From Alteromonas stellipolaris (GTDB lineage: Bacteria; Pseudomonadota; Gammaproteobacteria; Enterobacterales; Alteromonadaceae): a stretch of 64,000 bases of DNA. Position numbers and translations under genes: made by a program. Positions within the stretch are counted from its first letter, which is position 1. The number at the start of each line of letters is the position of its first letter. Shown here piece after piece: positions 16,726 to 36,048 of the stretch. Where the stretch lies: assembly GCF_001562115.1 (NCBI RefSeq), contig NZ_CP013926.1, positions 2,294,001 through 2,358,000 on the forward strand, given 5' to 3'. The notes under the pieces are model-generated. The model did no database searches, had not been told where the DNA came from, and saw only the letters and a program-made list of their open reading frames with translations.

Positions 16726-17775
16726 GTGGATACATTTTCAATTGGTCACCATACCATTGGTGACACACAGCCCCCTTTTATTATTGCGGAATTATCGGGT
16801 AATCATAACCAAGATCTTGATGTTGCTTTGGCCATGGTAGACGCTGCCGCAGAAGCTGGTGTTCATGCATTAAAGCTACAGACTTACACTGCTGATACCA
16901 TGACATTAGATATTGCTACTGGCGAGTTTTATATTGATGATGAGAATAGCCTGTGGCACGGTTCGTCGTTATATCAGCTATATGAAAAAGCGTTTACGCC
17001 ATGGGAGTGGCATAACGCTATTTTTGAACGAGCGAAAGAAAAAGGTATGGTTGCCTTTAGCACACCATTCGATCTTACTTCAGTAGCGTTTCTAGAAAGC
17101 CTAGAAGTACCTTGTTATAAAATAGCCTCATTTGAAAATACTGACCACGCGCTCATTGCTGCAGTGGCTAAAACAGGTAAACCCGTTATTGTCTCTACGG
17201 GTATGGCAAGTTTGACAGAAATTTCAGAAGCGGTAGATGTGTTACGTGACAATGGCTGTGAGAATTACGTGCTACTTAAATGTACTAGCCAATATCCTGC
17301 CGACCCAGTAAACGCTAACTTAATGACCTTGCCCCATTTAAAAGCCATGTTCGGATGCCATGTGGGATTATCTGATCACACTACGGGTATAGGGGTAGCC
17401 ATTGCAGCTGCCGCACTAGGCGCGAGTGTAATTGAAAAGCATTTCGTTATTGATAGAAATGCAGGCGGCGTGGACGCGGCATTTTCTTTAGAACCGAAAG
17501 AATTTAAACAGCTAGTAGAAGAAAGCCAACGCGCACGCATTGCAGTGGGGGAAGTTAATTACGGCTGTACAGAAGCAGAGGTTAATTCACGGGTACACAG
17601 GCGTTCGCTTTATATCGCTAACGATTTAAAGGCGGGTGATGTTTTAACCCCCACAAACTTGCGTTCAATTAGACCAGGCCTTGGTTTGCCGGTTAAAAAT
17701 TTGCCCATGCTGTTAGGAAAGCCTGTCAAACAAGATGTGGCAAAAGGTACCCCTATGAGCTGGGACCTTATTTAA
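16726..17775 (+). CDS. pseI: Pseudaminic acid synthase PseI
   Basis: PseI condenses the released 6-deoxy-diacetamido-altrose with phosphoenolpyruvate to pseudaminic acid. The 349 residues contain the NeuB-type TIM barrel (IIAELSGNHNQD, KLQTYTADTM, LLKCTSQYPA, GLSDHTTGIG) and a C-terminal antifreeze-like SAF domain (about 285-349). The AELSGNHN signature is the PseI form rather than the AEAGVNHNG of NeuB at 27110. It starts at GTG one base after pseG, with GAGGAAGG just upstream. Confidence 0.94.
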   Translation: MDTFSIGHHTIGDTQPPFIIAELSGNHNQDLDVALAMVDAAAEAGVHALKLQTYTADTMTLDIATGEFYIDDENSLWHGSSLYQLYEKAFTPWEWHNAIFERAKEKGMVAFSTPFDLTSVAFLESLEVPCYKIASFENTDHALIAAVAKTGKPVIVSTGMASLTEISEAVDVLRDNGCENYVLLKCTSQYPADPVNANLMTLPHLKAMFGCHVGLSDHTTGIGVAIAAAALGASVIEKHFVIDRNAGGVDAAFSLEPKEFKQLVEESQRARIAVGEVNYGCTEAEVNSRVHRRSLYIANDLKAGDVLTPTNLRSIRPGLGLPVKNLPMLLGKPVKQDVAKGTPMSWDLI

Positions 17776-17779
17776 TCCC

Positions 17780-18487
17780 ATGACGCATATTCCCGAAACA
17801 CCCAAACAAGTGATACCCAAACAAGTAGCACCTAAACCAGCAGCGCCTCTTTCAAAAGCAACTAGCGCAAAAACTAAAACATCGCCGAGCAGTCAGTTTA
17901 TACCGTTAAATGAAACGCACCTTGAAACGGTGCTTGGCTGGCGTAACTTGCCGCATATACGCGAAAACATGCACTCTACTGATGAGATAAGCTGGCAACA
18001 GCACCTTAGTTGGTTTGAAACACTTAAAAACAACGCGGGTAAGCAGTTCTTTGTGTTTATGCAAAACCAGCGCCCTATTGGGATTTTAAATTTCACTTTA
18101 ATAGGCGCTATTAAGAATAGCAATGAACTGACTGCGCCCTGCATAGAATGGGGATGTTATATTGGTGAGGACAATGTGTGGCCTGGGTCAGGGTTACTAT
18201 TAGAAATTGCCGCACTCGATTATGCATTTATCAGTAAAAATGCAGCAACCTTGTATGCCGAGGTGCTGTCGTCTAATCAATCCGTGCTCAAAATGCACAA
18301 ATTGTTTCAATACGAAGCACTTGAAGATCGAATAGATGAAAAACCAGAGAAAAAAGACGGCACTACTGTTACGGTTAAGCGCTTTTTATACCAACAAAAG
18401 CAGTGGCTTACCAAACGGGAAAAAGTACTTTCAATGTTACCAAAGCAAATTGGCGCAGCGGCACAGCATATACACTTTGTTGATTAA
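17780..18487 (+). CDS. PseH-like GNAT N-acyltransferase with a Pro/Lys-rich N-terminal extension
   Basis: Residues about 40-210 are a GNAT acyltransferase of the PseH type, which acylates the 4-amino sugar in pseudaminic acid synthesis (ETHLETVLGWRNLPHIRENM; IGILNFTL; CIEWGCYIGEDN). The first 38 residues are an unusual low-complexity tail with repeated KQV and PK units (IPKQVAPKPAAP). The gene starts 4 bases after pseI. An acyl carrier protein gene follows, so its acyl donor may be an acyl-ACP rather than acetyl-CoA. That last point is inference. Confidence 0.8.
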   Translation: MTHIPETPKQVIPKQVAPKPAAPLSKATSAKTKTSPSSQFIPLNETHLETVLGWRNLPHIRENMHSTDEISWQQHLSWFETLKNNAGKQFFVFMQNQRPIGILNFTLIGAIKNSNELTAPCIEWGCYIGEDNVWPGSGLLLEIAALDYAFISKNAATLYAEVLSSNQSVLKMHKLFQYEALEDRIDEKPEKKDGTTVTVKRFLYQQKQWLTKREKVLSMLPKQIGAAAQHIHFVD

Positions 18488-18804: not shown

Positions 18805-20175
18805 GTGTTGTCGCTGCTCGAGCAGGTTTCAAAATTTTCAGGTATTGCGCTTGTTCACAATACAAGGGCAGATAAAAAGGCAGCAAAAAAGGTAGATAAT
18901 AGCGTTAACGATGACGCTCGAGCTATTCAATACACCACTTACGAAACCCTAATTGCCGAAGCCAAAGCATTACGCGCTAAGGGAAACTTGCCTTGCCAGG
19001 CGGTACTTACTTTTGATGATCTAACCACCTTTGTAACCTATTTGCTAGCCTATGAAGGCGTGGTGGAAAATTTATATCTACAACCTGAAGCCCCGCTTGC
19101 TCTTCCTAATACAAGCAACGCATATAACAGCAGCACAAACACGGTAGATATCACACACAAAAAACCAGCTGCAACCGTGTGGCACTTGGCCACGTCTGGC
19201 ACAACAGGTACGCCCAAATGGATTGCTCATACTAGCTCTAGTTTATGCCGCGCTATTAAACACGGACGGCAACATCAGCAAACCCGCTGGGCATTATGCT
19301 ACCAACCCTTTCGCTATGCAGGCCTGCAAGTAATCTTACAAAGCCTGCTCAATGGCGCCACGTTAGTAGATTGCACCACCGCAGATACCGCCAAAAAAGT
19401 AGATATCATTAGGCGCGAGAAAGTAAATGCGATTTCCGCCACCCCCACCCTTTGGCGTCAATTTTTATTAAGCGGCGCTTTTTCAGATAGCTCGCCTACT
19501 TTCACTATCGAGAAGATAACTCTTGGGGGAGAAATTACCGATGCCCCGTTGATGGCCCTATTGGCAAGCCAATTTTCGAACGCAAAAATTATGCATGTAT
19601 ATGCATCTACTGAAGCTGGTGTAGGCTTTGCGGTTACCGACGGTCAGCCTGGTTTCCCAAAACAATGGCTAACTTCGGGAGTGAATGGTAATAGCTTAAA
19701 AGTGGATAGCGAAAATGTACTTTGGATCAAGGCTAACGCAGCGCAAAACACTAAATTAAACAAGATAAATAACACCATTGTAGAGGTCGATTCACAAGGC
19801 TACGTAAACACAAATGATGTAGTAATAATTAAAGACAATCGTGTTTACTTTAAAGGCAGAGCAAATGGTGCCATTAACGTCGGTGGGCAAAAAGTGCACC
19901 CCGAACATGTAGAACAAGTACTATTACAATCGCCATTAGTGTCACAAGCGCGAGTCTACGCGAAGCAAAGCAGTATCATGGGGCAACTCGTCGTGGCAGA
20001 TGTTGTGCTCTCTGCTAGCAAAGACATCGAAACAAAACCCACAATAGCGTTATTGCTACATTGTAAAAAGCATCTTGCTCGATTCGAAATGCCCACAAAA
20101 ATTAACGTTACTGATAGCATAGCCATCAATGCCTCAGGCAAGATAGGCAGAGCACAACAAGCGTCAACAGAGTAA
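18805..20175 (+). CDS. AMP-forming acyl ligase (ANL family), likely loads the adjacent ACP
   Basis: ANL-superfamily enzymes activate a carboxylate as acyl-AMP and transfer it to a thiol. The core motif LATSGTTGTPK is near residues 128-138. Further on, YASTEAG matches motif A5, and YFKGRANGAINVGGQKVHPEHVE, shortened here as GGQKVHPEHVE, marks the hinge. The C-terminal lysine region is SGKIGRAQQ. Its 456 residues are normal to slightly short. The start is uncertain: GTG 18805 is used and a TTG follows directly. Its substrate is unknown, but the ACP 4 bases upstream is its natural acceptor. Confidence 0.85.
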   Translation: MLSLLEQVSKFSGIALVHNTRADKKAAKKVDNSVNDDARAIQYTTYETLIAEAKALRAKGNLPCQAVLTFDDLTTFVTYLLAYEGVVENLYLQPEAPLALPNTSNAYNSSTNTVDITHKKPAATVWHLATSGTTGTPKWIAHTSSSLCRAIKHGRQHQQTRWALCYQPFRYAGLQVILQSLLNGATLVDCTTADTAKKVDIIRREKVNAISATPTLWRQFLLSGAFSDSSPTFTIEKITLGGEITDAPLMALLASQFSNAKIMHVYASTEAGVGFAVTDGQPGFPKQWLTSGVNGNSLKVDSENVLWIKANAAQNTKLNKINNTIVEVDSQGYVNTNDVVIIKDNRVYFKGRANGAINVGGQKVHPEHVEQVLLQSPLVSQARVYAKQSSIMGQLVVADVVLSASKDIETKPTIALLLHCKKHLARFEMPTKINVTDSIAINASGKIGRAQQASTE

Positions 20176-20179
20176 ATAT

Positions 20180-20917
20180 ATGCAGCAACCAACATTGAAT
20201 AAGAAACTAGTGATTGTGACGGGCGCGAGTCGAGGGCTAGGCCTTGCAATATGCCACTTATTGGCAGCAGATAACTACCAAGTGGTGGCGATTTCACGGG
20301 CAAGCAGTGACGCCCTTGATGCATTGTGTAGTGGCAATGATGTTACCCATATTCCATTTGATTTAGGGAACCTTGATTCACTTCACGAACTGACTAAATC
20401 AATAGTGAAAACACACGGTAGACCTTACGCGCTTATAAATAATGCCGCCGTAGGTTTTGATGGTGTGTTGGCCACTATGCATAACAGCGAGATAAACACG
20501 CTGCTGAATGTGAATGTTCAGGCGCCCATTTTACTGACCAAATATTTGTCTCGCGCCATGCTACTTAACCGCACGGGGCGAATTATCAATATTTCTTCAA
20601 TTATTGCCAACACCGGATTTAATGGTTTAAGCGTTTATGCTGCCAGCAAAGCGGCGCTTGAAGGATTTACCCGCTCCCTTGCACGGGAAGTTGGAAAAGC
20701 CGGCATAACAGTGAATTGCGTAGCCCCTGGCTACATGCAGACGGATATGACAGATAGCCTTACTGGCGACAAGCTTGAAGCAGTGAAACGCCGTAGTCCG
20801 CTAGGCACACTTGCCACGCCTGAAGATGCGGCAGGCGCCGTATTGTATTTATTAAGTGATAGCGCAAAATCAATTACAGGTACAACCATAACCGTTGATG
20901 CTGGCAGCACGGCTTAG
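20180..20917 (+). CDS. FabG-like short-chain dehydrogenase/reductase
   Basis: This is a classical SDR of 245 residues. It has the nucleotide loop TGASRGLG at 14-21, NNAA at 87-90, the catalytic Ser near 140, Tyr153 and Lys157 in the YAASK motif, and a C-terminus typical of 3-oxoacyl-ACP reductases (ITGTTITVDAGSTA). Next to an ACP and a ligase, it probably reduces a 3-oxoacyl-ACP to a 3-hydroxyacyl-ACP. The starting gap after the ligase is 4 bases. Reduction of a sugar keto group is the main alternative. Confidence 0.87.
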   Translation: MQQPTLNKKLVIVTGASRGLGLAICHLLAADNYQVVAISRASSDALDALCSGNDVTHIPFDLGNLDSLHELTKSIVKTHGRPYALINNAAVGFDGVLATMHNSEINTLLNVNVQAPILLTKYLSRAMLLNRTGRIINISSIIANTGFNGLSVYAASKAALEGFTRSLAREVGKAGITVNCVAPGYMQTDMTDSLTGDKLEAVKRRSPLGTLATPEDAAGAVLYLLSDSAKSITGTTITVDAGSTA

Positions 20918-21010
20918 CTAGTTGGCTTAAATTTTTGGTTTGGCAGGCAACGTCATAAGAACGTTTAATTATCGATTAATGTTAGTTACGAACTCGATAC
21001 GGATTGGACA

Positions 21011-21043
21011 GGCATTGGCATTGGCATTGGCATTGGCATTGGC
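21011..21043 (+). repeat. Hexanucleotide tandem repeat, GGCATT x5.5
   Basis: Five and a half perfect copies of GGCATT lie in the 151-base gap between the SDR gene and the glycerophosphotransferase-like gene, ending 25 bases before its ATG. An in-frame stop at 21051 keeps the repeat outside the coding frame. Copy-number change would move upstream promoter elements relative to the start without changing any protein. Confidence 0.95.
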
Positions 21044-21068
21044 GAGAGCTTAGCGAGAACGCATTACT

Positions 21069-22553
21069 ATGCAGAGCAATATTAATACCTCACAACCAGT
21101 ATACGTAGCACCAGCCAACCCAGCAGGAAGGGCGCTTGCGAGTGCACTAACGGCTGAGGGATACAACGTATGCGGGCTTGCTGATAATTTAAAGCAAGCC
21201 GATGGAATAATAAACTCACACGCTCAATCAAAACCTGATGCCATCGTTATTATTTGCAACGGCCCATACACTCATAATGTCGCCAAAGGGCTTATGGCAA
21301 GAGGGTTTGCTCCCCACCAGCTTTACACTTCGTTAAGAGAAGATGTCGACACCACAGTGCAAACGCAAAGCTCTGGCGCAAGCGCTCACTCGGACATTCG
21401 CCCATACAAAACGCCGATAAGCGAAAAGTTTAAGTCATTTCGGTTTAGAATATTATCGTTCACCATCAAGGTATTAAGGAGCATAGTGCCGCAACGGGGC
21501 TATGTGTATTACGCAGAGCAGTTTTTTGATACCAATATGCTGTTAGCGTACCGACAACACCGAAGACAATACCCTGATGAACCCTGGTTGATAGGCAGAA
21601 ATATCAAGCAAGATTTAACCATGCTGGATGCCGACAATCATCTACTACGCTTATTTTCGCTTTACGGGCTGTGGAAAATGGTACGTGCTAAAAAGATGGT
21701 GGTAGATCATGAGTTCACCGGGAATACCTTCACCCTTTTAAGAAAGTTTATTCCTGTTGTACAGCTATGGCACGGGTTACCTTATAAAGCGTTGAGCGGA
21801 AATATTCATTACCCTGATATTTGCGATGATGCCTTCATATCTAGTTCATCATGGTTTAACGAACACATCTTTCCCACTATTTTTAGGGCTAAACGCTATT
21901 TAGATTTCGGATACCCTCGAAATGATGTGTTTAGTCAATCACCTCAAGCGCGAGACTGGATAAACGCTGAGCCTCTCAGCACATTGACGCATATTCAAAA
22001 TACCACAGGTAGTATTATTGTATACGCCCCCACCTATCGCGATTGGGGGGATAACGATTATCCGTTAGATTTAGATAAGATAAACGCGTGGTGTGAGAAT
22101 AATAAACGCGCTTTTATTTTAAAATTTCACCCGTTTATTTCACGTCAATTTGGGGATGCCATGGCACTGCCTGATAGTGAAAATGTTCAAACGCTTCCTT
22201 CGCACCCTCATATCTATTTATACCCTAGTGGAAAGAATATATACCCTTGGCTGGCCGATGCAGAAACCTTGATTACTGACTATTCGTCAATCGCGTATGA
22301 CTTTTTATTGGCAGACAAACCGATTATTTATTTTCAATATGACAAGCAGGATTATCTGAAATTACGTGGAAATACATTGGTGAGTGACAATGATTTTATT
22401 GCGGGGGAAGTGGCGTTGACTATTGATGAATTACTTCGTCTTCTTACCGACTCTGCGGCAGCAAATACTGAATTAGTATCAGCACTGCGTGATAAATTTT
22501 TGCTCGGTAACAAACCGGCTTGCCCATTAATTCTTGAAGAGGTTAGAAGTTAA
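21069..22553 (+). CDS. CDP-glycerol glycerophosphotransferase-like protein (TagB/TagF family)
   Basis: Family members transfer glycerol-phosphate or ribitol-phosphate from CDP donors to polymers, as in teichoic acid synthesis. The C-terminal half (about residues 220-490) has the expected landmarks: VVQLWHGLPYKAL, FDFGYPRNDVF (read as DFGYPRNDVF), IIVYAPTYRDWG, ILKFHPF and LITDYSSIAYDFLLADKPII. The first 120 residues are a separate, Rossmann-like part of unknown role. The ribosome site is weak. In this setting it likely decorates the flagellin glycan or makes a donor-linked substituent; the acceptor is unknown. Confidence 0.8.
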   Translation: MQSNINTSQPVYVAPANPAGRALASALTAEGYNVCGLADNLKQADGIINSHAQSKPDAIVIICNGPYTHNVAKGLMARGFAPHQLYTSLREDVDTTVQTQSSGASAHSDIRPYKTPISEKFKSFRFRILSFTIKVLRSIVPQRGYVYYAEQFFDTNMLLAYRQHRRQYPDEPWLIGRNIKQDLTMLDADNHLLRLFSLYGLWKMVRAKKMVVDHEFTGNTFTLLRKFIPVVQLWHGLPYKALSGNIHYPDICDDAFISSSSWFNEHIFPTIFRAKRYLDFGYPRNDVFSQSPQARDWINAEPLSTLTHIQNTTGSIIVYAPTYRDWGDNDYPLDLDKINAWCENNKRAFILKFHPFISRQFGDAMALPDSENVQTLPSHPHIYLYPSGKNIYPWLADAETLITDYSSIAYDFLLADKPIIYFQYDKQDYLKLRGNTLVSDNDFIAGEVALTIDELLRLLTDSAAANTELVSALRDKFLLGNKPACPLILEEVRS

Positions 22554-24956: not shown

Positions 24957-25652
24957 TTACTGCTGACGCTTAAGTGCTAAATTAAATTCATCCAGCGTAT
25001 CAATATCAATTGAATCAACTTCGTCCATCACAAATGAATAGGTGGTGGGCTGGTATTGTGCAAACAAACTATCAACCTGGTAAATGAAGATAGCGCCATT
25101 GGGCATGTAAACTCGGCCATTGTTCTGTCGATTAAATAATCCACCTTGGTTTAAGCTATCGTCAAGGAACCTAAGTTGCCCTTCGGAATTATCTTGTAGC
25201 AACCATCGGTACTTATTCTCAACTTGATAGACTGACGCTAGTGACTTTTCTTCGCTAGGAATACGTTCAAAATACTCAAGAGCAGCATTGATGTGCTCAT
25301 AGGTTCTAAGCGGGGATGTGGGTTGAAGGCAAACAACCACATCATAAAATAGATTAGCTTTTGCCATCTCATCTACTGCATGTTTAAGTACTGACATCAT
25401 TCCTGCTGTGTCATCAGAAAGTGTTTTGGGTCGAATAAAAGGCACATGTGCCCCCCACTTTTTTGCCACTTCTGCATACTTATTACAATCGGTAGATACG
25501 ACAGCATCTAGCACATATTTTGACTGCTTAGCGGCCTCTATACTCCATGCTAATAAAGGCTTGCCATTAAATGGCAGTATATTTTTGTCTTTGAGCCCTT
25601 TTGAGCCAGAGCGGGCTGGAATAACAGCTAAAACGCGCGGATGATTAGCCAT
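24957..25652 (-). CDS. CMP-nonulosonate cytidylyltransferase (NeuA/LegF family)
   Basis: This enzyme activates a nonulosonic acid with CTP. Its start reads VLAVIPARSGSKGLKDKNI, the NeuA signature loop, and later PLLAWSIEAAK and VVCLQPTSPLR. It is distinct from PseF at 14905. Of about 230 residues, it is the single-domain bacterial form. I start at ATG 25652, overlapping the isomerase stop by one base; a GTG lies just before it. It is the last gene of the compact second sugar operon. Which nonulosonic acid it takes cannot be read from the sequence. Confidence 0.9.
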   Translation of the reverse strand: MANHPRVLAVIPARSGSKGLKDKNILPFNGKPLLAWSIEAAKQSKYVLDAVVSTDCNKYAEVAKKWGAHVPFIRPKTLSDDTAGMMSVLKHAVDEMAKANLFYDVVVCLQPTSPLRTYEHINAALEYFERIPSEEKSLASVYQVENKYRWLLQDNSEGQLRFLDDSLNQGGLFNRQNNGRVYMPNGAIFIYQVDSLFAQYQPTTYSFVMDEVDSIDIDTLDEFNLALKRQQ

Positions 25653-26515
25653 CACGAATTCAACAACGCCGCTGTACTTTCGTAGCTTTCTTGCAAGCTA
25701 CCATCGTAAACTTCAAGCGTAATCGTTTTATTGTTTAGAGCGACACTTTCTAGCAACTTAAATACTTCGGTCCCCTTGTGCAGCCCATGATTGGTATCGG
25801 CCATGCCATTATTATCACTAAAGTGTAGGTAGTCAGATTGTGCAACCAAGGTTTTAAGTTCATTGTCAAAACTTAGGCCCAAGCTATTACAGCTTACCTT
25901 AAGGTGTGCAATATCAAGCAACAATGGTGCGCCTGTGGCCTTTTGCAATTTTTTTATTGATACGCTGTCTGTCGCTAGAAACGGATTACCTTGCGTGAAG
26001 GTCTTGTGATTTGCAGCCGATAAAACATTATTTTCCACATAGAGTTTTACACCGTGCTCAATAGCTCTATCGTTGACTTTTTCCCATGCAGCAGCGAACA
26101 ATTCAATGGCCTCATTCTCAGGCTGTAGTGCAACATTTGTAAATGCTTTACCTAACTTGTTTGTGTCGGGCTGCAGACGAAACCCTGCATGAATACCGTA
26201 TACTGACGCCTCCAATTCATTTGATAATTCAATAACATTGAGAACATGCTCGATGGAACGGCGTCGTTCAAATTTATCATGAGATGATAAATTCAAAACA
26301 AAATGCTCTTTGGGAGGGGGAAAGTAGTTGTGGCATCGATACGTTAAGCCTAGCTCAGATTTTAATGCAATTAACTCTGCTTTCCACTCAGGGTATAAAT
26401 TAGTTCCCCCGGAAAGTTCGATATTTGTAAAACCTTGATCAGCCAACATTTTAACGCTTTGCGCGATACGGCTATTATTGACACAACTGCTGGAAACAAA
26501 AATAGCCGAGTTCAT
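25652..26515 (-). CDS. TIM-barrel sugar isomerase/epimerase-like protein
   Basis: The protein (287 residues) looks like the xylose-isomerase-like / AP-endonuclease-2 TIM-barrel family. Expected metal-site stretches are visible: HAGFRLQPD (with the His), LYVENN, LLLDIAHLK (Asp and His), HFSDNNG and ITLEVYDGS. Such enzymes isomerise or epimerise sugars. It overlaps neuD by 4 bases and neuA by one base, so it is most likely part of one pathway with them, perhaps epimerising the free sugar before the NeuB step. The exact reaction is unknown. Confidence 0.8.
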   Translation of the reverse strand: MNSAIFVSSSCVNNSRIAQSVKMLADQGFTNIELSGGTNLYPEWKAELIALKSELGLTYRCHNYFPPPKEHFVLNLSSHDKFERRRSIEHVLNVIELSNELEASVYGIHAGFRLQPDTNKLGKAFTNVALQPENEAIELFAAAWEKVNDRAIEHGVKLYVENNVLSAANHKTFTQGNPFLATDSVSIKKLQKATGAPLLLDIAHLKVSCNSLGLSFDNELKTLVAQSDYLHFSDNNGMADTNHGLHKGTEVFKLLESVALNNKTITLEVYDGSLQESYESTAALLNS

Positions 26516-27117
26516 GGTTTCACCTTTCTAGCTGGACTACCTACGTAAAGTCCTGGCTCATCAATATCACAATTCACAAACGCGTTAGCACCAATAATAA
26601 CACCATCTGTTAAGCGCACACCTTCTCGGATAACCGCGCCAGCTCCTACAAAGCATCTATCTCCAAGCGAACAACGCCCTAATACCATAGCACCAACAGC
26701 AATATGGCTATGACATCCTATTCGGGATTCATGCTCAACAATAGCATGGGTATTAACAATCGTGTTTTCACCCACGATACATAAAGGACCAACATAAGCG
26801 CCTGAAAATATTTGAGAGCCCCGTTGCGCTGTCGCATTTTCGTCTATGCTTGCGCGCAGATGTACTAATGGCTTATTCCACAATCGAGTGTGGTACTGGT
26901 GAAACATGGCTTCTCGTATTTTGTTATCGCCTACTGATAGGACTAGAGACTCTACAGATTTTGCCAAATCCGATACAACCGGTATACCCATCACGTTTTC
27001 ATCCGCTAAGGCTGTGCTATCGACTATACGCGCCACTTGCACATCAATTGAACGAAGTAGCGATAATACTGAACGAGCATGCCCTCCGGCACCAAGCAAG
27101 GTGATTACGTCAGACAT
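26512..27117 (-). CDS. NeuD/PglD/PerB-like sugar O/N-acetyltransferase
   Basis: The 201-residue protein has a small Rossmann-like N-terminus (LLGAGGHARSVLSLL) followed by left-handed beta-helix hexapeptide repeats (about 90-195: IVNTHAIVEHESRIG, HIAVGAMVLGRCSLG, FVGAGAVIREGVRL). This is the architecture of NeuD, PglD and the GDP-perosamine N-acetyltransferase PerB. Next to a GDP-perosamine synthase, PerB-like N-acetylation of the 4-amino group is the most economical reading. It overlaps neuB by 8 bases and the isomerase by 4. Confidence 0.87.
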   Translation of the reverse strand: MSDVITLLGAGGHARSVLSLLRSIDVQVARIVDSTALADENVMGIPVVSDLAKSVESLVLSVGDNKIREAMFHQYHTRLWNKPLVHLRASIDENATAQRGSQIFSGAYVGPLCIVGENTIVNTHAIVEHESRIGCHSHIAVGAMVLGRCSLGDRCFVGAGAVIREGVRLTDGVIIGANAFVNCDIDEPGLYVGSPARKVKP

Positions 27118-28165
27118 TTACTATATCGCCTACGTTCAATAACTTTGTCGCTAATTTTCCATATACACTTTGGACATAATTAGCAGGGATCCCTACACCA
27201 CCAGTTCGTTTCGCGCAAATATTACTCTCATTAAAGGCAACACCTGGCTCAATATGACAACTCGCCACTAAACACTTTTGAAGTGAAAGCCTGTTTTCAC
27301 GCTCACACAATTCCACACGTTTTATATTGCGCCCCATCATGGTATCTACTCGCCTTATTTCACGCATAAAGCTAATTAATTCATCGGGTGAAAGCGATGC
27401 TTGGTGGTCAGGGCCAGGCAATGTCTTATCTAGCGTAAAGTGTTTCTCGATAACTAAAGCTCCAGCGGCAACTGCATAGGGCGAAGCACCTATGCCTACC
27501 GTGTGATCGGAATAACCAGCGATAATCCCATAGTCTTCCGCGTATTTGCGAATAACTCTTAGGTTCAAGTCAGCCTCTGGCGCAGGGTAACTGGAGGTAC
27601 ATTGGAGTAACACCACATCTTTACAGGCTTCATGAATTGCAGAAATAGCGTGATCGACTTCTGACTGCTCACTCATGCCGGTAGATAATATAATCGGAAC
27701 ACCTATCTTAGCGGCATCTAGAAGAAAAGGAGTATTGGTTAAGTCAGTGGACGATATCTTTAATGCTGACAATCCCAACGTAGCGAGAAAAGAAAGGCTA
27801 GGTTCATCAAATGGCGTAACTAGAAAATCAATGCTTTTAGTTGCGGCATACTCTGCTAACACCTTGCATTCATCCGCACTAATCTCCAGTGCCTTCAACA
27901 TTTCATACTGTGATTGACTATCAGTTTTATTACCAACTTGATATGCGGCTTTTTTTACATCAGCTTTAATAAGGGCATCAGTATTAAAGAGCTGAAATTT
28001 AACCGCATCTGCGCCTGCAGAAACCGCTGTGTCTATTAGTTTCTTAGCCAACGCGATATCACCATTGTGATTCACCCCGGCTTCTGCAATGACATAGGTA
28101 GGCTCCCCTGCCCCTATAGTATGTTTTCCTATGGTGACATTTTTAGAAAAGCGATAAATTGTCAT
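27110..28165 (-). CDS. neuB: N-acetylneuraminate-type nonulosonic acid synthase NeuB/LegI
   Basis: NeuB enzymes condense a hexose derivative with phosphoenolpyruvate to a nine-carbon sugar acid. The 351 residues contain VIAEAGVNHNGD, VKFQLFNTDAL, LLQCTSSYPAP and GYSDHTVGIG in the barrel. A C-terminal SAF domain follows (about 285-350). It differs clearly from PseI at 16726, so the island encodes two different synthases. It overlaps the aminotransferase by 4 bases and NeuD by 8. The acceptor sugar is uncertain; context points to a perosamine-derived sugar instead of ManNAc. Confidence 0.93.
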   Translation of the reverse strand: MTIYRFSKNVTIGKHTIGAGEPTYVIAEAGVNHNGDIALAKKLIDTAVSAGADAVKFQLFNTDALIKADVKKAAYQVGNKTDSQSQYEMLKALEISADECKVLAEYAATKSIDFLVTPFDEPSLSFLATLGLSALKISSTDLTNTPFLLDAAKIGVPIILSTGMSEQSEVDHAISAIHEACKDVVLLQCTSSYPAPEADLNLRVIRKYAEDYGIIAGYSDHTVGIGASPYAVAAGALVIEKHFTLDKTLPGPDHQASLSPDELISFMREIRRVDTMMGRNIKRVELCERENRLSLQKCLVASCHIEPGVAFNESNICAKRTGGVGIPANYVQSVYGKLATKLLNVGDIVNV

Positions 28166-29301
28166 TTCGAAAGGCTCCGTTGGCGGTTGGTAATTGCGGT
28201 ACTGATGATTTCACACACTCTTTGAATATCTTCACAACTCAAACCTACAAAAGTGGGCAATGACAAACCAGATGAAGATAATACATCGGTAGATTTCAGC
28301 GCAGCTCTTTCATTTGAATAAGGCGGTTGCTGATGTAATGGGTAAAAGAACAATCGCGACTCTATTTGGTGTTCCGTTAAAATACCTTGTAATTCGGCTG
28401 CACTAATTCCACTTAACGCTTCATCTATTCTTAAGGACATAAGCCAATTAACAGGTATAGCCCCCTTAATAACTCTTTTAAAAATGACCCCAGGAACATC
28501 CGTTAGATATTTTTTGTAGAGAGCTTCTTGTTCACTACGTGCTTTTGCAAATTCATCGAACACATTGAGCTGAGAAACGCCAATAGCAGCTTGAATGTTG
28601 GTCATTCTATAGTTTAATCCCGCTATATCATGCCAATATCGTTTCTCGGTGCTCATGCCGTGATCTCTTAGCGTTCTGATTTTAAGCGCGAGTGCATCAC
28701 TATCTGTCGTCACCATCCCTCCCTCGCCGGTGGAAAGGAGTTTATTCGCAAAAAAGCTATAGCACCCCATATCACCAAAAGTACCTAAATAACGGCCATC
28801 TAGTGTAGCACCAAGCGACTCAGCACAATCTTCAATAACGCTTAAGCCGTTGCGTTTAGCGAAATCATTAATCTCATGCATCCGTGCCGGGTTCCCGTAT
28901 AGATGTACGGGAATAATAGCTTTAGTTTTGTCTGATAACACCGCCTCAGCGTCGTTAACATCCAGTGTCCACTCATCTTTATTTACACAACAAAGCACAG
29001 GTGTTGCGCCACATAAAATAACTGCATTTGCGGTAGCGGCAAACGTTAGGTCGGGCACAATAACTTCATCTTCCGATCCGATCCCTAAACAGAGCAACGC
29101 GAGATGAAGTGCAGCCGTCCCACTGCTAACGCTGATGGCGTGCTTAGCCCCGCATTTTTCTGCAAATTCGTTTTCGAACCTCTCGACGTAAGCCCCTTTC
29201 GATGAAATCCACCCCGAATCTAAACAATCAACAACAAAGGTTTTTGCTTCTTGAGTGAGATAAGGCTTTGATACTGGTATAAAATCACTGTTGCTATTCA
29301 T
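28162..29301 (-). CDS. GDP-perosamine synthase-like aminotransferase (PerA/RfbE, DegT family)
   Basis: The enzyme is a pyridoxal-phosphate sugar aminotransferase. Of 379 residues, key points are the N-terminal [37 protein letters not shown] and the catalytic Lys at 187 in [27 protein letters not shown] also matches the perosamine synthase subfamily rather than PseC. These enzymes convert GDP-4-keto-6-deoxy-mannose to GDP-perosamine. The gmd gene immediately upstream, overlapping it by 8 bases, supplies that substrate. It is unlikely to replace the lost PseC, whose substrate is a UDP-linked altrose-type ketosugar. Confidence 0.88.
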
Positions 29302-30421
29302 TACTATACTTATTTAAAATCGCTTCATCTCTTGAAAGGGATAAGTCGTGAGTCATCATTTCATTTACCATTTCATTCAGTGTGACTTTGGGTTTCCAAC
29401 CTAATTCACGCTCCGCTTTACTTGCATCCCCCCACAATACGTCCACTTCATTTGGGCGAAAATAAAAAGGATCTATTTTTACTACTACATCACCGACATT
29501 AAGGCTACTTATAAAGCTACCTAAAAGTGTTTCCGTTTTTTCTTTATCAATTGTATCTATTCGCGCTATTTCATCTACACCACTACCTTGCCAAGCAAGC
29601 GTGATACCTAGTTCAGCAAAACTCAATTCAACAAACTGCCTTACCGAGGTTTTACTTCCTGACGCGATGACATAATCTTCAGGTTTATCTTTCTGAAGCA
29701 TCAGCCATTGAGCTTCGACATAATCCTTAGCATGCCCCCAGTCCCTTTGTGCATCTAGGTTACCTAAGTATAGGCAATCTTGAAGACCATAAATCATACG
29801 CGCGATAGCTGAGGTAATTTTACGGGTAACAAAAGTTTTACCCCGTAGCTTAGACTCGTGATTGAATAAAATGCCGTTACAGGCAAACATCCCGTAAGAC
29901 TCTCGGTAATTAACGACAGACCAGTAAGCATATAATTTTGCAGTGGCATAAGGTGAGCGAGGATAAAACGGCGTAGTTTCACTTTGCCGAGGCTCTTGAA
30001 TTTTGCCATACAACTCAGACGTTGAAGCTTGATAGAACTTTACTTTATCAGCCTGTTTCAAGGTTCTAATTGCATCTAGTAGGCGTAAGGTACCAATAGC
30101 ATTTACGTCAGCTGTATTTTCTGGAGCGTTAAATGAAACATGTACGTGACTTTGCGCGGCTAAGTTATACACTTCTGTGGGTTCAATATCGGCCAGTAAT
30201 CTTACCAATGACAGTGGATCAGACATGTCGCCATAGTGTAGATAGAAATTATTTTTAGTCCCTTGGGGAGGCTGAACAAGATCGTGTACGCGATCTAAGT
30301 TTGGCAATGAAGCCCGTCGCCTTAACCCGTGAACTTCGTAGCCTTTACCCAGCAAAAAGCGCGATAGATATGCGCCGTCTTGCCCTGTAACCCCAGTGAT
30401 TAGTGCTATTTTCTTTGCCAT
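29294..30421 (-). CDS. gmd: GDP-mannose 4,6-dehydratase Gmd
   Basis: Gmd converts GDP-mannose to GDP-4-keto-6-deoxy-mannose. The 375-residue protein shows the NADP loop [37 protein letters not shown], the catalytic STSELYG and [12 protein letters not shown], and the typical end [19 protein letters not shown]. Every landmark of true Gmd is present, which sets it apart from LegB or PseB dehydratases. It is the first gene of the coupled run gmd, perosamine synthase, neuB, neuD, isomerase, neuA. Confidence 0.95.
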
Positions 30422-30436: not shown

Positions 30437-31516
30437 TTATTGTAAGTTAAGGGTCGTTATTCCAAACTCTTCAAACCTATCATATATAGACTCAATATGA
30501 TCTCGAAGCGTAAACCTGTCACTGCCGTAATGACGTGTGCCCATAGCGGCCAATTCATTTTCATTTAACATATAACAAATTGCCTCACACGCATTGCCTG
30601 ACAGTATTTTCATGTTAAATAAACTTGTTGAGTGTAAACCTACTACCTTTTCAGGCATACGACCTTGCGAGGCACACGCTAATTCATAAGGCTGATCGTG
30701 AAATTCTATTGTGTATCCCAAATCAGATAAAATCTGCGCCTTAGATTTTATATCTTCCGCTCTGTGAGCAAAGTAAATTAATGATGTTTTTGCATCATGG
30801 GACTTAGCAGCATGAGTCAAGATGTCGTAATAGCGCTTCGAATCAAGCAGGCCCTTTTCACATACCGGCGAGCCAATGAAATGCCGCTCTACGTTTTCAT
30901 TATGGTCGTGTAGTGCAAACTGCTGTCGAAGCAACGACAGTGTATTTCGAATAGAATGCTTACTATCATTAAATTCAAATATAGAAAAAAGGCGAAACTT
31001 CGTAGGATTGTGAGATATCCCCAATGAAGATTTTAGCTCCCATGCCAGCAATTTTCGCTCGGGGTTGTCTGAATGCATAGAAACAGGAAGCATATAATCG
31101 CTAGGTCGAATTATAAACTTTTCAAAAACATTCGTAGCGGCGCCATCATCCACTAATACCACGTTATCTGCATTGATATTACATGCAATATCTTGCATCC
31201 ATAGCTGTCGCAGGTCGCCAATTAATACCGTCGAAAAAGCACCTTTTGCAAATACAGAGATAAGATCTGAATAGGCGCCAATTCGCGAAGCTAAACTGCC
31301 TTCTTTAGGGATAGAGAGTAGCTTTACAGATTCAGGTTTCGCAATCTTATGCATTGCCTCAATTTGAAGCATAGAGTTTTCACAGAACGTAGCTGCATTC
31401 ACTACGGTAATACTGACCCGCCGTCCCATTTGATGCAAATATTCCAACGCACACCAATATTGAAATGGTGATGAGATGAGCATTAAAATCTTCAATTGAT
31501 GGTTGTCACTTGTCAT
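30437..31516 (-). CDS. Probable glycosyltransferase of GT52/sialyltransferase-like type, uncertain
   Basis: I do not recognise a close family. The N-terminus LKILMLISSPFQYWCALEYLHQ and the internal VLIGDLRQLWMQ and NVVLVDDGAA resemble the GT-B sialyl/polysialyltransferase group (GT52). The C-terminal half has EFHDQPYELA and VGLHSTSLFNMKIL, the latter resembling a nucleotide-binding loop of that group. At 359 residues the length fits. It sits just upstream of gmd and after the Stealth gene on the same strand. It could transfer the CMP-nonulosonate, or alternatively release a nucleotide from an intermediate. Confidence 0.5.
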   Translation of the reverse strand: MTSDNHQLKILMLISSPFQYWCALEYLHQMGRRVSITVVNAATFCENSMLQIEAMHKIAKPESVKLLSIPKEGSLASRIGAYSDLISVFAKGAFSTVLIGDLRQLWMQDIACNINADNVVLVDDGAATNVFEKFIIRPSDYMLPVSMHSDNPERKLLAWELKSSLGISHNPTKFRLFSIFEFNDSKHSIRNTLSLLRQQFALHDHNENVERHFIGSPVCEKGLLDSKRYYDILTHAAKSHDAKTSLIYFAHRAEDIKSKAQILSDLGYTIEFHDQPYELACASQGRMPEKVVGLHSTSLFNMKILSGNACEAICYMLNENELAAMGTRHYGSDRFTLRDHIESIYDRFEEFGITTLNLQ

Positions 31517-31654: not shown

Positions 31655-32653
31655 TTAAAGGGCTAATTCAGACACGAGTGGCGGGCCACAGAGCGCTTCT
31701 AAGTCACTTTTTACAAAGGGTAAACGGGGGTAAAGTGATTGATACTCGTTGATACAAAACATTTTCCGTTTGTTTTGACGAAACAAGTCAAAAAGAAACT
31801 TAATTTTTTCAGCCTCACCTTCTCGGCATAACTGAAAACTAAAATGTACCATGGGTTCGGTACCGCTTGTCTCAACGTTTTTATGTCGGTAGCAATAATG
31901 ATTGTGTAAGGATTCAAGCAAAAATTGGCTACGGTGCCTGAACTTGTGAGCTAAGTTATTTGTGAATTGAGCTGGAAATTTATCCCTAAGCGTTTCGATA
32001 ATTTGTCTATCCATAGGTTGAAACCCATGGCTTATATTTATAAAAGAGTGAGAAGGGAACCCGAGCATTTTTGCGGCATTCATCATGCCTTGCTGATATA
32101 GTGTTGGCTTTATTTCGGCGGTGTGTGAGACCCAATCACCATAAACTACAGGCAGCCCTTGCTTGAAGAAAAAGTCAGGCGCAACATTGCCCCCAAGCAT
32201 AAAATCATCGTTGCCATATATAAATTTCTGGCTCAACCCTGGAATTTTATCGATTAAAGATACTATGCTGCGGGTGTTAAATGTAGGCAGGTACTTTTCA
32301 TTTCCAGAAAATATAGCTTTGTGATCAACTATCTCGATGCGATCTTTATAAAGCTTTTTGGACTCTAAAAATGAAGGTATTTGACTATCGGTTACCAGCC
32401 AAATTTTCCTATACCAGGGGGCATGATGCTTTATTGAACGTAGACAATATCGCAGTTCGCTTGTCTGTATAAATCTTAGGTTATCAATCGACTGCTCTTC
32501 ATCTCCTGGATTACAACCTATATCAGAAGATAAAAAGGCCTGCCTTTTGGCACGGTGTTCAGGCGCATCTCCGTCTACCCAAAGTATAACGAAATCTATA
32601 CCACTTTCTTGACTAACTGGATCTGGGCTACTATTGGACGTAGATAAAGTCAT
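31655..32653 (-). CDS. Stealth-family sugar-phosphate transferase
   Basis: Stealth proteins transfer a sugar-1-phosphate from a nucleotide sugar, forming phosphodiester-linked glycans. The conserved regions are clear: CR1 as DFVILWVDGDAPEHR (about 20-34), CR2 as SELRYCLRSIKHHAPWYRK and IWLVTDSQIPSFL (about 65-97), CR3 as FIYGNDDFMLGG, and CR4 near the C-terminus (NDLRFLFD-like region weaker). The length, 332 residues, is typical. It lies 11 bases after maf and is probably co-transcribed. A 138-base gap without clear signals follows before the next gene. Confidence 0.85.
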   Translation of the reverse strand: MTLSTSNSSPDPVSQESGIDFVILWVDGDAPEHRAKRQAFLSSDIGCNPGDEEQSIDNLRFIQTSELRYCLRSIKHHAPWYRKIWLVTDSQIPSFLESKKLYKDRIEIVDHKAIFSGNEKYLPTFNTRSIVSLIDKIPGLSQKFIYGNDDFMLGGNVAPDFFFKQGLPVVYGDWVSHTAEIKPTLYQQGMMNAAKMLGFPSHSFINISHGFQPMDRQIIETLRDKFPAQFTNNLAHKFRHRSQFLLESLHNHYCYRHKNVETSGTEPMVHFSFQLCREGEAEKIKFLFDLFRQNKRKMFCINEYQSLYPRLPFVKSDLEALCGPPLVSELAL

Positions 32654-32664: not shown

Positions 32665-35600
32665 TTAGCGCGTTTTTCGGTCAATAAATATTTGTTTCAT
32701 GCTCTGGTATTTTTCATCATTTATTTTTCGACCGAGAATATCTAAAACCTTAATATGCGGGAGATAATAGACCCTATCACCATTACCTAATAATAATTCC
32801 TGCTCATCCAAACGACGTTGGCTGAGTAATAAAAAGTCGGAACCACTATAAGCATAAATCCCCTCAAGTGAGAGTAATCGCTTATCGAACCAAGGTGTAT
32901 CCGCTGCGTCATCGTTATAAATCAACTTGGGAACAAAAACCACACCATTAATGCCACTAATTATTGAAAGTACAGCAAAATTCAATCCAGTTTCATCGTT
33001 ACATGACACGGAGTACCCTTCTGTTAAATAACTTCCAGGGATGTAAACTGAATTGCCGTCCTCGATAAACAATGACTCTATATTTTTTGCGACTTCTCTT
33101 ACTATCACATATCGCTTCTGATTCGCTTCTTTATTTGAAGGTTCAAGGTTAGTGGTTAACAATGCGGCAGGGTTTTTCTGGTCTCTATATTCGTCCACAA
33201 TAGAAATGAATGTGCTATTTCGGCCAATTGGCGCACTGCTTTCGATATCAATATTAAAAGGTTTTGAGGATAAGTAGTTTCTTAATAAAATTTCTCTACG
33301 TTTACCCATAAAACTAGTAATACCATCCAGCTCGAATCGAGCATGTGCAAAACCATCACGAATATACTTTAAGTAGCGTTTCCATATAGAAAGGAGTTCG
33401 CTACTTAATGAAATCATCCGTGTTTCATCACTTAAATTAGCCACTTTAGTGAGTGAGCTATTAATGTAATTTAACGTGCCATTTAGGTAAAAGAATAGAA
33501 GAGAGTTTTTGTTCAGCAAAGATTTGACCACAAAGTTCCTTTGCTCTTCTATTAGCACTGTTAAATCTTCTTTGCTCTCTAATTCTGTAGGTACTAATAG
33601 ATGAAATTGAGAAAGCTCTTCTATTAATACATTACTGTCGTAGCGATTGTTAAATCGCTTTTCAAAGTCATCAAAATCTAGCTCTTTAAAAACCTGTTGC
33701 TTCATTGCTTCAACTGCGGCATCTCTTTGAGCAGCGCTACAAACTAAAATAGCGTCCTCTTTGCGAAGCGGTTTAGTTCCCGCTATTTTCGCGCCATCAT
33801 TTAGGTTATAAACTTCGGCTTTCTTCACTGACAAAACATTTTCTAATACAGATTTAGATACTTTAAATTCATATTTCGTTTTTACCACGGGCCTAAAATT
33901 TCCAGGCAGAATCAAAGATGTATTGTTTTCAGCGGTGTAATCGTACAGTTCGTTGCCTTTCTCACTGTAATACCCTGAAGATTTCGAATGATGATAATTT
34001 TCATCTACAAACCCCATATCAGTCCCAAACAGATAAAACTGCTCAAAGCCGATTTCAGTCAGCAGATTCATAGCGAAATTAGTGACGGTAGGGTATGCGG
34101 CATCAAGAGCCCCAAAGGTCTTTTTGGGGTACAGTTCCGCAATAGACACTGTTGAAGCTTCACCTTGTTTAAATGCTAAATACACATCTTTGTACAAGTT
34201 ACAGGTGTCAGGATGAATTCCGTTGCAGCTTATTAAACTGATTTGTTTTAAGTAATCTGGCGCATTAACACGAATCGCCCAATCATAGGTAGACCGATTT
34301 GATTCAATTTCTGCGTGAAAATGAGGCGTAATACCGTGTTTATAAAGTGTTTGAAGCGCCGTTCCACAAGAAACAATAATTGCGGCATCAGCTTCTTCTT
34401 TAATCAAAGGAATGAGATCGTCAAGCGAAGGGCCATTACCAACAATAAAAACCGGTACTTCTTTGTGAATAGATTCTAAATGAGTCGAAGGCTTATAACG
34501 CATCAGTGGCATGTGGTGCTTTATCGCTGAATGTGTGTGCGAAAGACCATATTTTGCATTATCGAGATAGTCACCCATCGCAATAATAACCTGTAACTGC
34601 TCTCTTAGTTGAGATACGGCGGTTACTAACCCTTGATTATAATAAGACTGATAAAAATATGAATTGGCCAACACATAGGGACCAATAGACTGAAACTGAA
34701 CCAATAAATCATTAATTAGATTGCTTCCATCGTCTCCAATATTTAAGTAAAGACGACGTTCTTTTTTATTGAAATAATCTAAAATTTTAGCCCAATCAAC
34801 GCTATATAAAGACGCGTAAAAGAAGTCTTTATTAGGTTCGCAAATAAATAATTTTTCTATATCGAAGTTTTCTACAAAATACTCGAAATCGTACCCAGCA
34901 GCCAAACCAAAAAAGATAGTCGATTTTACTTTTTCTGGTAACTGTCCCGACTCTTCTTCAAAGCCCTGTAGTACTTTCTCGCATTCTGTAACCAACTGAT
35001 AGTGGGTATAATTGCGAAGCTTTTTCCCTTTATAACCGAGCACTAAACTGTCTTTATGAGGGTGCTGAGTAAAGTTTTTAAAGCTGTGATGGGCTTCATT
35101 TTCCGGCGCGTTACCATAGAAAAGAGCCCCAGTGGCTTTATAGCAAATATTGATGCTGCCATCGGCGAGTGCAATGGGCTCCCACACGGCCGGAGAATAT
35201 GCTAAAAACTCTTTATATAATTCGGGGAAATACTGTTTTAGTGCATCAAGATTACGCAGCTTGGTGCTTTCATCAAGAAAGCTTTGATCCCAATTAAACT
35301 GATGCTTAATTTGAGTCCAAGGGGAAATATAATTAACAATAGGATTGAGTGTGGTGCGTTTAAATCGCCAATGCTCAAACTCATCCCAGGTCAGGGTTTT
35401 AAGGCCACTTTCAACTTGGTCGAACGTTGGATTATTAAAATGCTTGTATAACGCAAATTTTGTTAAACCTAAATGTTCTTGTAGCTCACTAATATCACTA
35501 TATAAACTACTTCCATCGCTGCCTATTTGTAGAAATAAAGCAATTCCCGCTTTCTTCGCATCACTAAGAATATCTTTCCAATTAATGGATGAAAGTGAGC

Positions 35601-36048
35601 AAATAAAATAATCAACATTAGGTTCGTAAACGACAATATTTTTATATTTCTGGCACGCTATCAGTTCTTCAAGGTGATAACCTAGCCCCAACCCCAGAAC
35701 GACCAATGTATCTGTAGCAGTGGTGACACCTGATTCTTCGACAGACACATCAAGTCTATCATTCAAATATGCACGCAAATGCCCACTTACTTCTTCTTTT
35801 GGTGAGATCCCATAAAGTACTTGACCAGTCTGAATGTCGACAATATTCAACTCGCCGAATCTATTGCACATTATCGTAGAAGACGTGGCTTCTTGATTGA
35901 CGAAAAATTTTAGTAAAGAGGGAATTTGACGTCTAAAAGCCTCAACACCTTCGTGATGACGCCGCTGAATTGATTTCGCAACTTCTTGTTCAATATTCTG
36001 TTGCTTTTGTTCGTCTTCATCAATGTGAAACTGAATTTGGTTTAGCAT
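32665..36048 (-). CDS. maf: Motility accessory factor Maf, flagellin nonulosonate transferase
   Basis: Maf proteins transfer pseudaminic, legionaminic or related acids onto Ser/Thr of flagellin in the cytosol. The DUF115/MptE-like core is near residues 505-700, with VPVFIVGNGPSLDDLI, ISCNGIHPD and FGTDMGF. At 1127 residues it is long for the family. The N-terminal part carries two similar blocks, about 115-220 (VLGLGLGYHLEELI, YEPNVDYF, QIGSDGS) and 376-480 (FFGLAAGYDFEYF, CEPNKDFF, NIGDDGS), an internal duplication. It starts 2 bases after the FliT-like gene, so it is coupled to the fliDST genes. Base composition is AT-richer than its neighbours to the right. Confidence 0.92.
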   Translation of the reverse strand: MLNQIQFHIDEDEQKQQNIEQEVAKSIQRRHHEGVEAFRRQIPSLLKFFVNQEATSSTIMCNRFGELNIVDIQTGQVLYGISPKEEVSGHLRAYLNDRLDVSVEESGVTTATDTLVVLGLGLGYHLEELIACQKYKNIVVYEPNVDYFICSLSSINWKDILSDAKKAGIALFLQIGSDGSSLYSDISELQEHLGLTKFALYKHFNNPTFDQVESGLKTLTWDEFEHWRFKRTTLNPIVNYISPWTQIKHQFNWDQSFLDESTKLRNLDALKQYFPELYKEFLAYSPAVWEPIALADGSINICYKATGALFYGNAPENEAHHSFKNFTQHPHKDSLVLGYKGKKLRNYTHYQLVTECEKVLQGFEEESGQLPEKVKSTIFFGLAAGYDFEYFVENFDIEKLFICEPNKDFFYASLYSVDWAKILDYFNKKERRLYLNIGDDGSNLINDLLVQFQSIGPYVLANSYFYQSYYNQGLVTAVSQLREQLQVIIAMGDYLDNAKYGLSHTHSAIKHHMPLMRYKPSTHLESIHKEVPVFIVGNGPSLDDLIPLIKEEADAAIIVSCGTALQTLYKHGITPHFHAEIESNRSTYDWAIRVNAPDYLKQISLISCNGIHPDTCNLYKDVYLAFKQGEASTVSIAELYPKKTFGALDAAYPTVTNFAMNLLTEIGFEQFYLFGTDMGFVDENYHHSKSSGYYSEKGNELYDYTAENNTSLILPGNFRPVVKTKYEFKVSKSVLENVLSVKKAEVYNLNDGAKIAGTKPLRKEDAILVCSAAQRDAAVEAMKQQVFKELDFDDFEKRFNNRYDSNVLIEELSQFHLLVPTELESKEDLTVLIEEQRNFVVKSLLNKNSLLFFYLNGTLNYINSSLTKVANLSDETRMISLSSELLSIWKRYLKYIRDGFAHARFELDGITSFMGKRREILLRNYLSSKPFNIDIESSAPIGRNSTFISIVDEYRDQKNPAALLTTNLEPSNKEANQKRYVIVREVAKNIESLFIEDGNSVYIPGSYLTEGYSVSCNDETGLNFAVLSIISGINGVVFVPKLIYNDDAADTPWFDKRLLSLEGIYAYSGSDFLLLSQRRLDEQELLLGNGDRVYYLPHIKVLDILGRKINDEKYQSMKQIFIDRKTR

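Follow-up and report, generated by a model that had tools for sequence, protein, structure and literature searches.

A six-gene operon of Alteromonas stellipolaris that may lead from GDP-mannose to a nonulosonic acid through a candidate TIM-barrel nucleotide-sugar hydrolase

The window considered here is a 64,000-nucleotide stretch of contig NZ_CP013926.1 of Alteromonas stellipolaris (genome 4.9 Mb, two contigs), and coordinates without a locus handle are positions in it. On its minus strand lie six overlapping genes (Table 1), encoding in order a guanosine diphosphate (GDP)-mannose dehydratase, a DegT aminotransferase, a NeuB-family synthase, a NeuD-type acetyltransferase, a triosephosphate isomerase (TIM)-barrel protein and a NeuA-type synthetase of sugars linked to cytidine monophosphate (CMP). 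An initial annotation had given them these identities and read them as a nonulosonic acid pathway built on GDP-perosamine. All six open reading frames are present where it placed them, Pfam and NCBIfam bear out the assignments, and of the overlaps it counted (8, 4, 8, 4 and 1 bases) the first four are exact, while the last is 1 base only with the ATG start of NeuA and becomes 4 with the GTG start.

Table 1. Genes of the six-gene operon and the three genes upstream of it, with their principal matches.
Gene product	Position	Strand	Match or remark
Gmd, GDP-mannose 4,6-dehydratase (proposed step 1)	29294..30421	-	TIGR01472, 541 bits (cut-off 415)
DegT aminotransferase, GDP-perosamine-synthase-like (proposed step 2)	28162..29301	-	PF01041, 395.6 bits
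NeuB-family nonulosonic acid synthase (proposed step 5)	27110..28165	-	PF03102, 282.7 bits
NeuD/PglD/PerB-type hexapeptide acetyltransferase (proposed step 3, N-acylation at sugar C4)	26512..27117	-	TIGR03570, 164.6 bits (cut-off 160.8)
TIM-barrel protein, AP endonuclease 2 family, proposed GDP-sugar hydrolase (step 4)	25652..26515	-	PF01261, 57.7 bits (cut-off 31.1)
NeuA/PseF-type CMP-nonulosonate synthetase (proposed step 6)	24957..25655 (GTG start) or ..25652 (ATG start possible)	-	PF02348, 90.3 bits
GT52/polysialyltransferase-like protein, probable CMP-nonulosonate transferase, co-directional	30437..31516	-	PF07922, 22.3 bits (below cut-off 26.1)
Stealth-family protein (possible sugar-phosphate transferase), co-directional	31655..32653	-	PF11380/PF17101/PF17102; retained in L004, L005, L006
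Maf flagellin nonulosonate transferase, co-directional	32665..36048	-	PF20157, 344.1 bits; near the cluster also in L004, L005, L006, L012, L013

The best solved relative of the dehydratase is 1db3, a GDP-mannose 4,6-dehydratase (E 1.7e-147), which together with the TIGR01472 match identifies it as the Gmd of the GDP-perosamine pathway; the LegB model gives it only 85.8 bits against a cut-off of 475, so that a LegB-type dehydratase is not indicated. GDP-mannose is the substrate of Gmd. For the aminotransferase the best solved relatives are the perosamine synthetases 3bn1 and 3dr7 (45.7% identity to the 3bn1 stretch), and the PseC model stays at 283.4 bits, below its cut-off of 423.5. The NeuB-family protein falls short of the PseI model (242.7 bits, cut-off 340.25), as does NeuA of the PseF-type model TIGR03584 (148.4 bits, cut-off 205.7); the pair of a NeuB-family synthase and a CMP-nonulosonate synthetase, which marks nonulosonic acid biosynthesis in general, is present (PF03102, PF02348). 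The family matches support these gene assignments and a probable order of action of Gmd, PerA-like aminotransferase, acyltransferase, NeuB and NeuA.

Sixteen loci, the window's own (L003) among them, were gathered by similarity to the TIM-barrel protein; L006, L011 and L014, which are one record, were counted once, and a Phyllobacterium plasmid hit without nonulosonate context (H2, 25.6% identity) was dropped before counting. As the initial annotation had suggested looking for, the six proteins do occur together elsewhere. The same set is clustered in five other loci of Alteromonadaceae type: L004 (Alteromonas sp. MMG017, 95% identical to the window), L005 (A. confluentis), L006 (an Alteromonadaceae metagenome-assembled genome, MAG), L012 (genome G100, Alkalimonas amylolytica) and L013 (genome G132, beside Maf and flagellin), with the gene order changed in L006 and L013. 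A further locus, L029, from Maribacter sp. HTCC2170 of the Bacteroidota (genome G849), has in a row NeuB, a 431-residue fusion of a GNAT domain with the TIM barrel (L029:9379-10674, confirmed by Pfam), DegT, Gmd and NeuA, adjoining genes that by eye resemble wzx and wzy; no NeuD match was found in this cluster, the GNAT domain standing in NeuD's place. Of 897 relatives of the Maribacter fusion at E <= 1e-10, 120 were listed with their Pfam domains; by our count 100 of these carry GNAT, and those with an organism name are Bacteroidota.

For comparison, 15 NeuB loci lacking the TIM gene were chosen by hand from the 60 that were listed out of 102 plasmid records matching NeuB; Gmd, NeuC and PseG were called in all loci by BLAST bit scores rather than curated models, and distances of 8 kb were taken from the TIM gene in the TIM loci and from NeuB in the controls. 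Gmd lies within 8 kb of the TIM gene in seven of the 16 TIM loci (the window, L004, L005, L006, L012, L013 and L029) and in 0 of the 15 controls, and it was found elsewhere in the genome in both of two genomes tested that have no adjacent Gmd. A Bacteroidia MAG, Bdellovibrionota genomes and an Azospirillum plasmid hold parts of the core of NeuB, TIM, DegT and NeuA/NeuD with no Gmd within 8 kb, and L056 has beside NeuB a gene like that of mannose-1-phosphate guanylyltransferase, or GDP-mannose pyrophosphorylase (TIGR01479, 219.4 bits, under cut-off). There is no NeuB in the stretches examined of L008, L058 and L060, which, like L007, are truncated on one side, so that genes may lie beyond. Since both the Maribacter operon and the reordered loci keep Gmd, its adjacency is unlikely to be due to chance, and, given recurrence in such distant genomes, one pathway is far likelier than a chance neighbourhood. 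Together with the gene assignments, this recurrence supports the perosamine-based reading of the initial annotation.

The TIM protein has 1064 relatives at E <= 1e-5. The cluster is patchy in the genus, since only one of 36 same-genus genomes, the window's own, has the TIM gene; TIM relatives (E <= 0.001) occur in one of 60 related genomes searched. At E <= 1e-20, with the own or centre genome included, the TIM protein is found in 4 of 295 genomes of the window's family and 1 of 398 of its phylum, and at the same threshold in 2 of 296 of the phylum of G714, 1 of 397 of the family of G849 and 7 of 368 of the phylum of G715. No match to it was found in phage records, and none of 13 pattern hits in viral contigs was confirmed.

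Two trees bear on the identity of the sugar. The aminotransferase tree (29 rows) covers 14 of the 16 TIM loci, L004 and L060 being left out and one of two DegT genes being chosen in L056; 12 of the 14 TIM-linked rows, including the window's DegT, group with perosamine synthase 3bn1 (support 83/91), those of L029 and L056 fall outside this group, and LegC and PseC form separate clades, each at 100/99. In the NeuB tree (30 proteins, 12 of the 13 TIM-locus NeuBs being used and L004 left out), eight TIM-linked NeuBs from three phyla, the window's included, form a clade (97/91), and five PseI stand apart (100/100). From the tree placement and established family chemistry, we infer that the product would be a 7-acylamido-3,7,9-trideoxy-non-2-ulosonic acid with a 5-hydroxyl. 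Individual residues of NeuB were also considered as a guide to specificity and set aside, since arginine R320, the expected contact of the N-acetyl group, is invariant even in PseI and hence uninformative.

Some of the evidence pulls against the perosamine-derived reading. The grouping with 3bn1 is only moderately supported; the NeuBs of L015, L029 and L061 are unplaced, that of L056 falls among NeuC-linked ones, and the PseG-linked, long-branch L071 lies next to the TIM clade (82/84). Because these placements scatter, the TIM loci need not all make the same sugar, and the presence of the TIM gene in all 16 loci is no evidence, as they were gathered by it. The top NCBIfam model of the window's DegT is LegC (TIGR04181, 322.9 bits, below its cut-off of 420), and Gmd is not within 8 kb in nine of the 16 TIM loci, several of these stretches being cut short. 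These last two points, along with a NeuB score narrowly below the cut-off of the N-acetylneuraminic acid synthase equivalog TIGR03569 (375.8 against 399.65 bits), would suit one of the usual pathways, to legionaminic, pseudaminic or neuraminic acid, with Gmd and the aminotransferase forming a separate GDP-perosamine or GDP-fucose branch alongside. Such an arrangement is improbable in view of the operon itself, in which neither LegB, PseB nor NeuC was found by Pfam, NCBIfam and BLAST, nor a second aminotransferase; Gmd opens an operon whose genes all overlap and is found within the Maribacter operon as well, and DegT groups with perosamine synthase, not with LegC or PseC.

A hydrolase step is required in a perosamine-derived pathway because NeuB needs the free sugar. 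The initial annotation had proposed that either the TIM-barrel protein (25652) or the protein encoded at 30437 carries it out, and it is the former that the GNAT fusion and the absence of nearby NeuC or PseG favour. The 30437 protein has 22 relatives at E <= 1e-5, against the 1064 of the TIM protein, and its predicted model is of the GT-B fold, nearest to polysialyltransferase 5wcn/5wc6 with sialyltransferases further down, for which reasons it was set aside as a general hydrolase; PseG 3hbn is at rank 5 among the structure matches, so the fold by itself would accommodate either activity. It is probably, to judge from the model, a transferase using a CMP-sugar (CMP-nonulosonate).

By BLAST, none of the 16 TIM loci has a NeuC/WecB-type match, and none has PseG at 8 kb or less from the TIM gene; the PseG of a pseudaminic operon lies 9.9 kb from the TIM gene in the window and 8.3 kb from it in L005. 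Among the 15 controls, nine have NeuC, three PseG and three neither. NeuC or PseG is thus near in 0 of the 13 TIM loci with NeuB and in 12 of the 15 controls (Fisher p 1.5e-5, indicative only, as the loci are not independent); five NeuC and three PseG queries were taken from the controls themselves, so that eight of these 12 were found by construction and the other four (L067, L068, L075 and L076) were not. No TIGR03568 (NeuC) match was found in the whole of the window's genome, and in the Maribacter genome PseG gave 0 matches and Epimerase_2 only a partial one of 28.2 bits, below the cut-off of 30.6. The fusion to GNAT would suit a TIM domain whose turn comes directly after N-acylation, while the sugar is still linked to GDP. 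A manno-configured precursor derived from GDP-mannose would need no 2-epimerase, so that a plain hydrolase would suffice, and this would explain the absence of NeuC/LegG. On this evidence the TIM barrel is the likely GDP-removing enzyme and probably represents a new class of hydrolases acting on nucleotide sugars.

By its PF01261 match and its fold the TIM protein belongs to the AP endonuclease 2 superfamily. Across 31 selected sequences, aligned, 36 columns are invariant, among them H62, H109, E161, D201, H204, H231, D240, N242 and E268, though a divergent homologue such as that of L061 does not keep all of them; the AlphaFold2 model (predicted local distance difference test score, pLDDT, 95.3) places H62, H109, E161, D201, H231 and E268 at the ends of strands 3 to 8 or beside them. 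At eight of the nine places these residues would match the zinc ligands of endonuclease IV. Searched as a profile against the PDB, the family finds MJ1311 first (8.8e-9) and then endonuclease IV (1.3e-3), and the match of the window's TIM protein to the CbiR model is weak (27.2 bits, cut-off 105). The label 'TIM-barrel isomerase' is, we think, misleading for 25652.

Here too there is evidence on the other side. N242 stands where endonuclease IV would have a histidine, and the profile alignment to that enzyme spans only the H109 region. A structure search with the model gives MJ1311, D-tagatose 3-epimerases and xylose isomerases first, at or above endonuclease IV, so that the fold comparison does not favour a hydrolase over an epimerase; fold likeness does not by itself establish function. 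PseG is above cut-off in five of the seven TIM genomes tested, the window's included, away from the TIM gene, and could supply the hydrolysis in genomes having it. NeuC is above cut-off in G715 and Epimerase_2 in G100 and G132, all away from the TIM gene, and the window's genome has one partial Epimerase_2 (PF02350) match 1.4 Mb away (31.2 bits, just above cut-off). Alternatively, in the same perosamine-derived pathway, the TIM protein may be a true sugar epimerase or isomerase, as its annotation has it, GDP being removed by PseG or another enzyme; the product would then differ at a stereocentre, for example C5. We consider this rather unlikely: Maribacter has the operon with no PseG match and no Epimerase_2 match above cut-off, a 2-epimerase is unnecessary for a manno-configured precursor, and the invariant H62 and H109 (ends of strands 3 and 4) occupy what are presumably the first-metal ligand sites of endonuclease IV, ligands that are not known from the epimerases.

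On the observed gene content, recurrence, family and tree placement, our preferred reading, held at a probability of roughly 0.6, is that the six genes form one cytoplasmic pathway to a 7-acylamido-5-hydroxy nonulosonic acid in which the TIM barrel removes GDP. Gmd would convert GDP-mannose to GDP-4-keto-6-deoxymannose, from which the PerA-like aminotransferase would make GDP-perosamine; the NeuD-type enzyme would then place an acyl group, in the simplest case acetyl, on the amino group at C4. The TIM-barrel protein, which is related to endonuclease IV and CbiR and presumably metal-dependent, is proposed to hydrolyse this GDP-sugar to free 4-acylamido-4,6-dideoxymannose, which NeuB would condense with phosphoenolpyruvate into the acid described above, a 7-N-acyl-9-deoxy form of 2-keto-3-deoxy-D-glycero-D-galacto-nonulosonic acid (Kdn), or 5-hydroxy-legionaminic acid, for activation with CMP by NeuA. 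In the Alteromonadaceae the product probably goes to flagellin via Maf and the GT52-like transferase, and in Maribacter, where the cluster has wzx/wzy-like neighbours, to a surface polysaccharide.

The three genes upstream of the operon, those for the 30437, Stealth-family and Maf proteins, run in the same direction, and the region is flanked by flagellin and FliD genes. Three flagellin genes lie in tandem on the minus strand (38845-39684, 40407-41258 and 41919-42770) beside fliD and Maf, with a fourth flagellin gene at 12642-13442. A distinct pseudaminic acid operon (PseB/C/G/I set) is found at 13691-18487, outside the six-gene operon. Its gene at 13691-14842 (+) looks like a PseB-PseC chimera, in which residues 1-294 match PseB (80% to a G100 protein) and residues 279-377 align with positions 281-378 of the model for PseC, and the pseudaminic operon of this genome thus seems to be without most of PseC. 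It might be supposed from this that the six-gene cluster repairs the pseudaminic acid route, DegT 28162 standing in for PseC. This is highly improbable, as G100 has both pseB and pseC intact (pseC at L030 4619-5764) yet carries all six genes too (L012), DegT 28162 falls outside the PseC clade, and Gmd and the TIM protein would be left without a role. The stretch at 18805-22553 (+), which separates the pseudaminic operon from the six-gene cluster, has genes for an acyl ligase resembling MenE, a reductase resembling FabG and a protein resembling glycerophosphotransferases. All three are retained in L004, L005 and L012, and they may serve to form an acyl group of the flagellin glycan and to attach it.

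Other features recur near the TIM gene in the gathered loci. The adjacent aminotransferases often begin with a similar stretch of some 110-130 extra residues (L007:4650-6071, L008:9864-11342, L057:13716-15146, L058:4786-6285, L059:11365-12834 and L015:14864-16351), which in L007, the one scanned with Pfam, is a CBS domain and is possibly a nucleotide sensor. At L061:5900-11787 a divergent TIM homologue (28%), with, by our own reading, an asparagine in place of D201, has as neighbours NeuB, NeuD and what look, by eye, like genes of GDP-heptose synthesis (a kinase and a nucleotidyltransferase); the locus may hold a related route that begins with a different GDP-sugar. HisF/HisH-like pairs with an N-acetyl sugar amidotransferase occur near the clusters at L015:10593-13265 (annotated) and L059:4538-7076 (by eye), which suggests acetamidino-modified forms of the sugar in some bacteria.

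The initial annotation knew of no described pathway with this gene set, and a search of open-access papers, which omit most subscription journals, is consistent with that: it turned up no nonulosonic acid route from GDP-mannose, nor any description of nucleotide-sugar hydrolase activity for the AP endonuclease 2 family. The accessible parts of PMC3765264, PMC7371886, PMC7439481, PMC3438082, PMC12925313, PMC7733943, PMC3210612 and PMC7281560 show no pathway of this kind, and PMC12925313 gives perosamine and nonulosonic acids as separate accessory products. That a further CMP-nonulosonic acid route exists, running through GDP-mannose and GDP-N-acylperosamine to an undescribed 5-hydroxy-7-acylamido-9-deoxy acid and using a metal-dependent, endonuclease IV-like TIM-barrel class of nucleotide-sugar hydrolase unrelated to the GT-B-fold NeuC and PseG, with hundreds of relatives, some of them fused to the acetyltransferase for the preceding step, is a wider proposition to which we give even odds. 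If true, sialic-acid-like sugar chemistry would gain a branch from GDP-mannose, and a large metal-enzyme superfamily a new reaction; proteins now named 'sugar phosphate isomerase/epimerase', 'TIM barrel protein' or 'GNAT family N-acetyltransferase' would be that branch's hydrolases; and the signature of NeuB and TIM without NeuC or PseG would predict a different sugar on flagella and exopolysaccharides, whose residue mass with an N-acetyl group would be 275.10 Da, where legionaminic and pseudaminic acid in their di-N-acetyl forms have 316.13 Da.

Among known systems, the CMP-legionaminic acid pathway (LegB/C/H/G/I/F) shares with the proposed one a dehydratase, an aminotransferase, an acetyltransferase, nucleotide removal, a NeuB-type condensation and CMP activation. 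The operon differs in starting at GDP-mannose via Gmd rather than at an N-acetylglucosamine nucleotide, in a sugar that would have no C2 nitrogen and hence give the 5-hydroxyl, in having no LegG/NeuC, and in an aminotransferase that is PerA-like, not LegC-like. According to PMC7439481, Campylobacter jejuni LegB uses GDP-N-acetylglucosamine and the Bacillus subtilis sps pathway uridine diphosphate-linked precursors; as the C. jejuni legionaminic route is GDP-linked, GDP-linked nonulosonic precursors have a precedent. The CMP-pseudaminic acid pathway (PseB/C/H/G/I/F) has a similar logic of steps and a similar likely target, flagellin through Maf, but employs an inverting dehydratase, PseC and the GT-B-fold hydrolase PseG, none of which is in the six-gene operon. 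The pathway to GDP-perosamine and its N-acetyl form consists of Gmd, PerA and PerB, its GDP-sugar being used directly by glycosyltransferases; its first three steps would be common to the operon, which adds the proposed hydrolase, NeuB and NeuA, and these last two argue for another fate of the perosamine. Kdn is a nonulosonic acid with a C5 hydroxyl made from a mannose-type substrate, and its synthesis presents a NeuB-family enzyme with a C2 hydroxyl as is proposed here, though Kdn, unlike the proposed product, contains no nitrogen and does not come from a GDP-deoxyamino sugar. CbiR and endonuclease IV resemble the TIM protein in fold and may do so in their pattern of His, Glu and Asp residues, and differ from it in that its proposed substrate is a nucleotide sugar. 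According to PMC7733943, CbiR, a member of the AP endonuclease 2 superfamily, is a phosphodiesterase, for which metal-dependent cleavage of a phosphoester is described.

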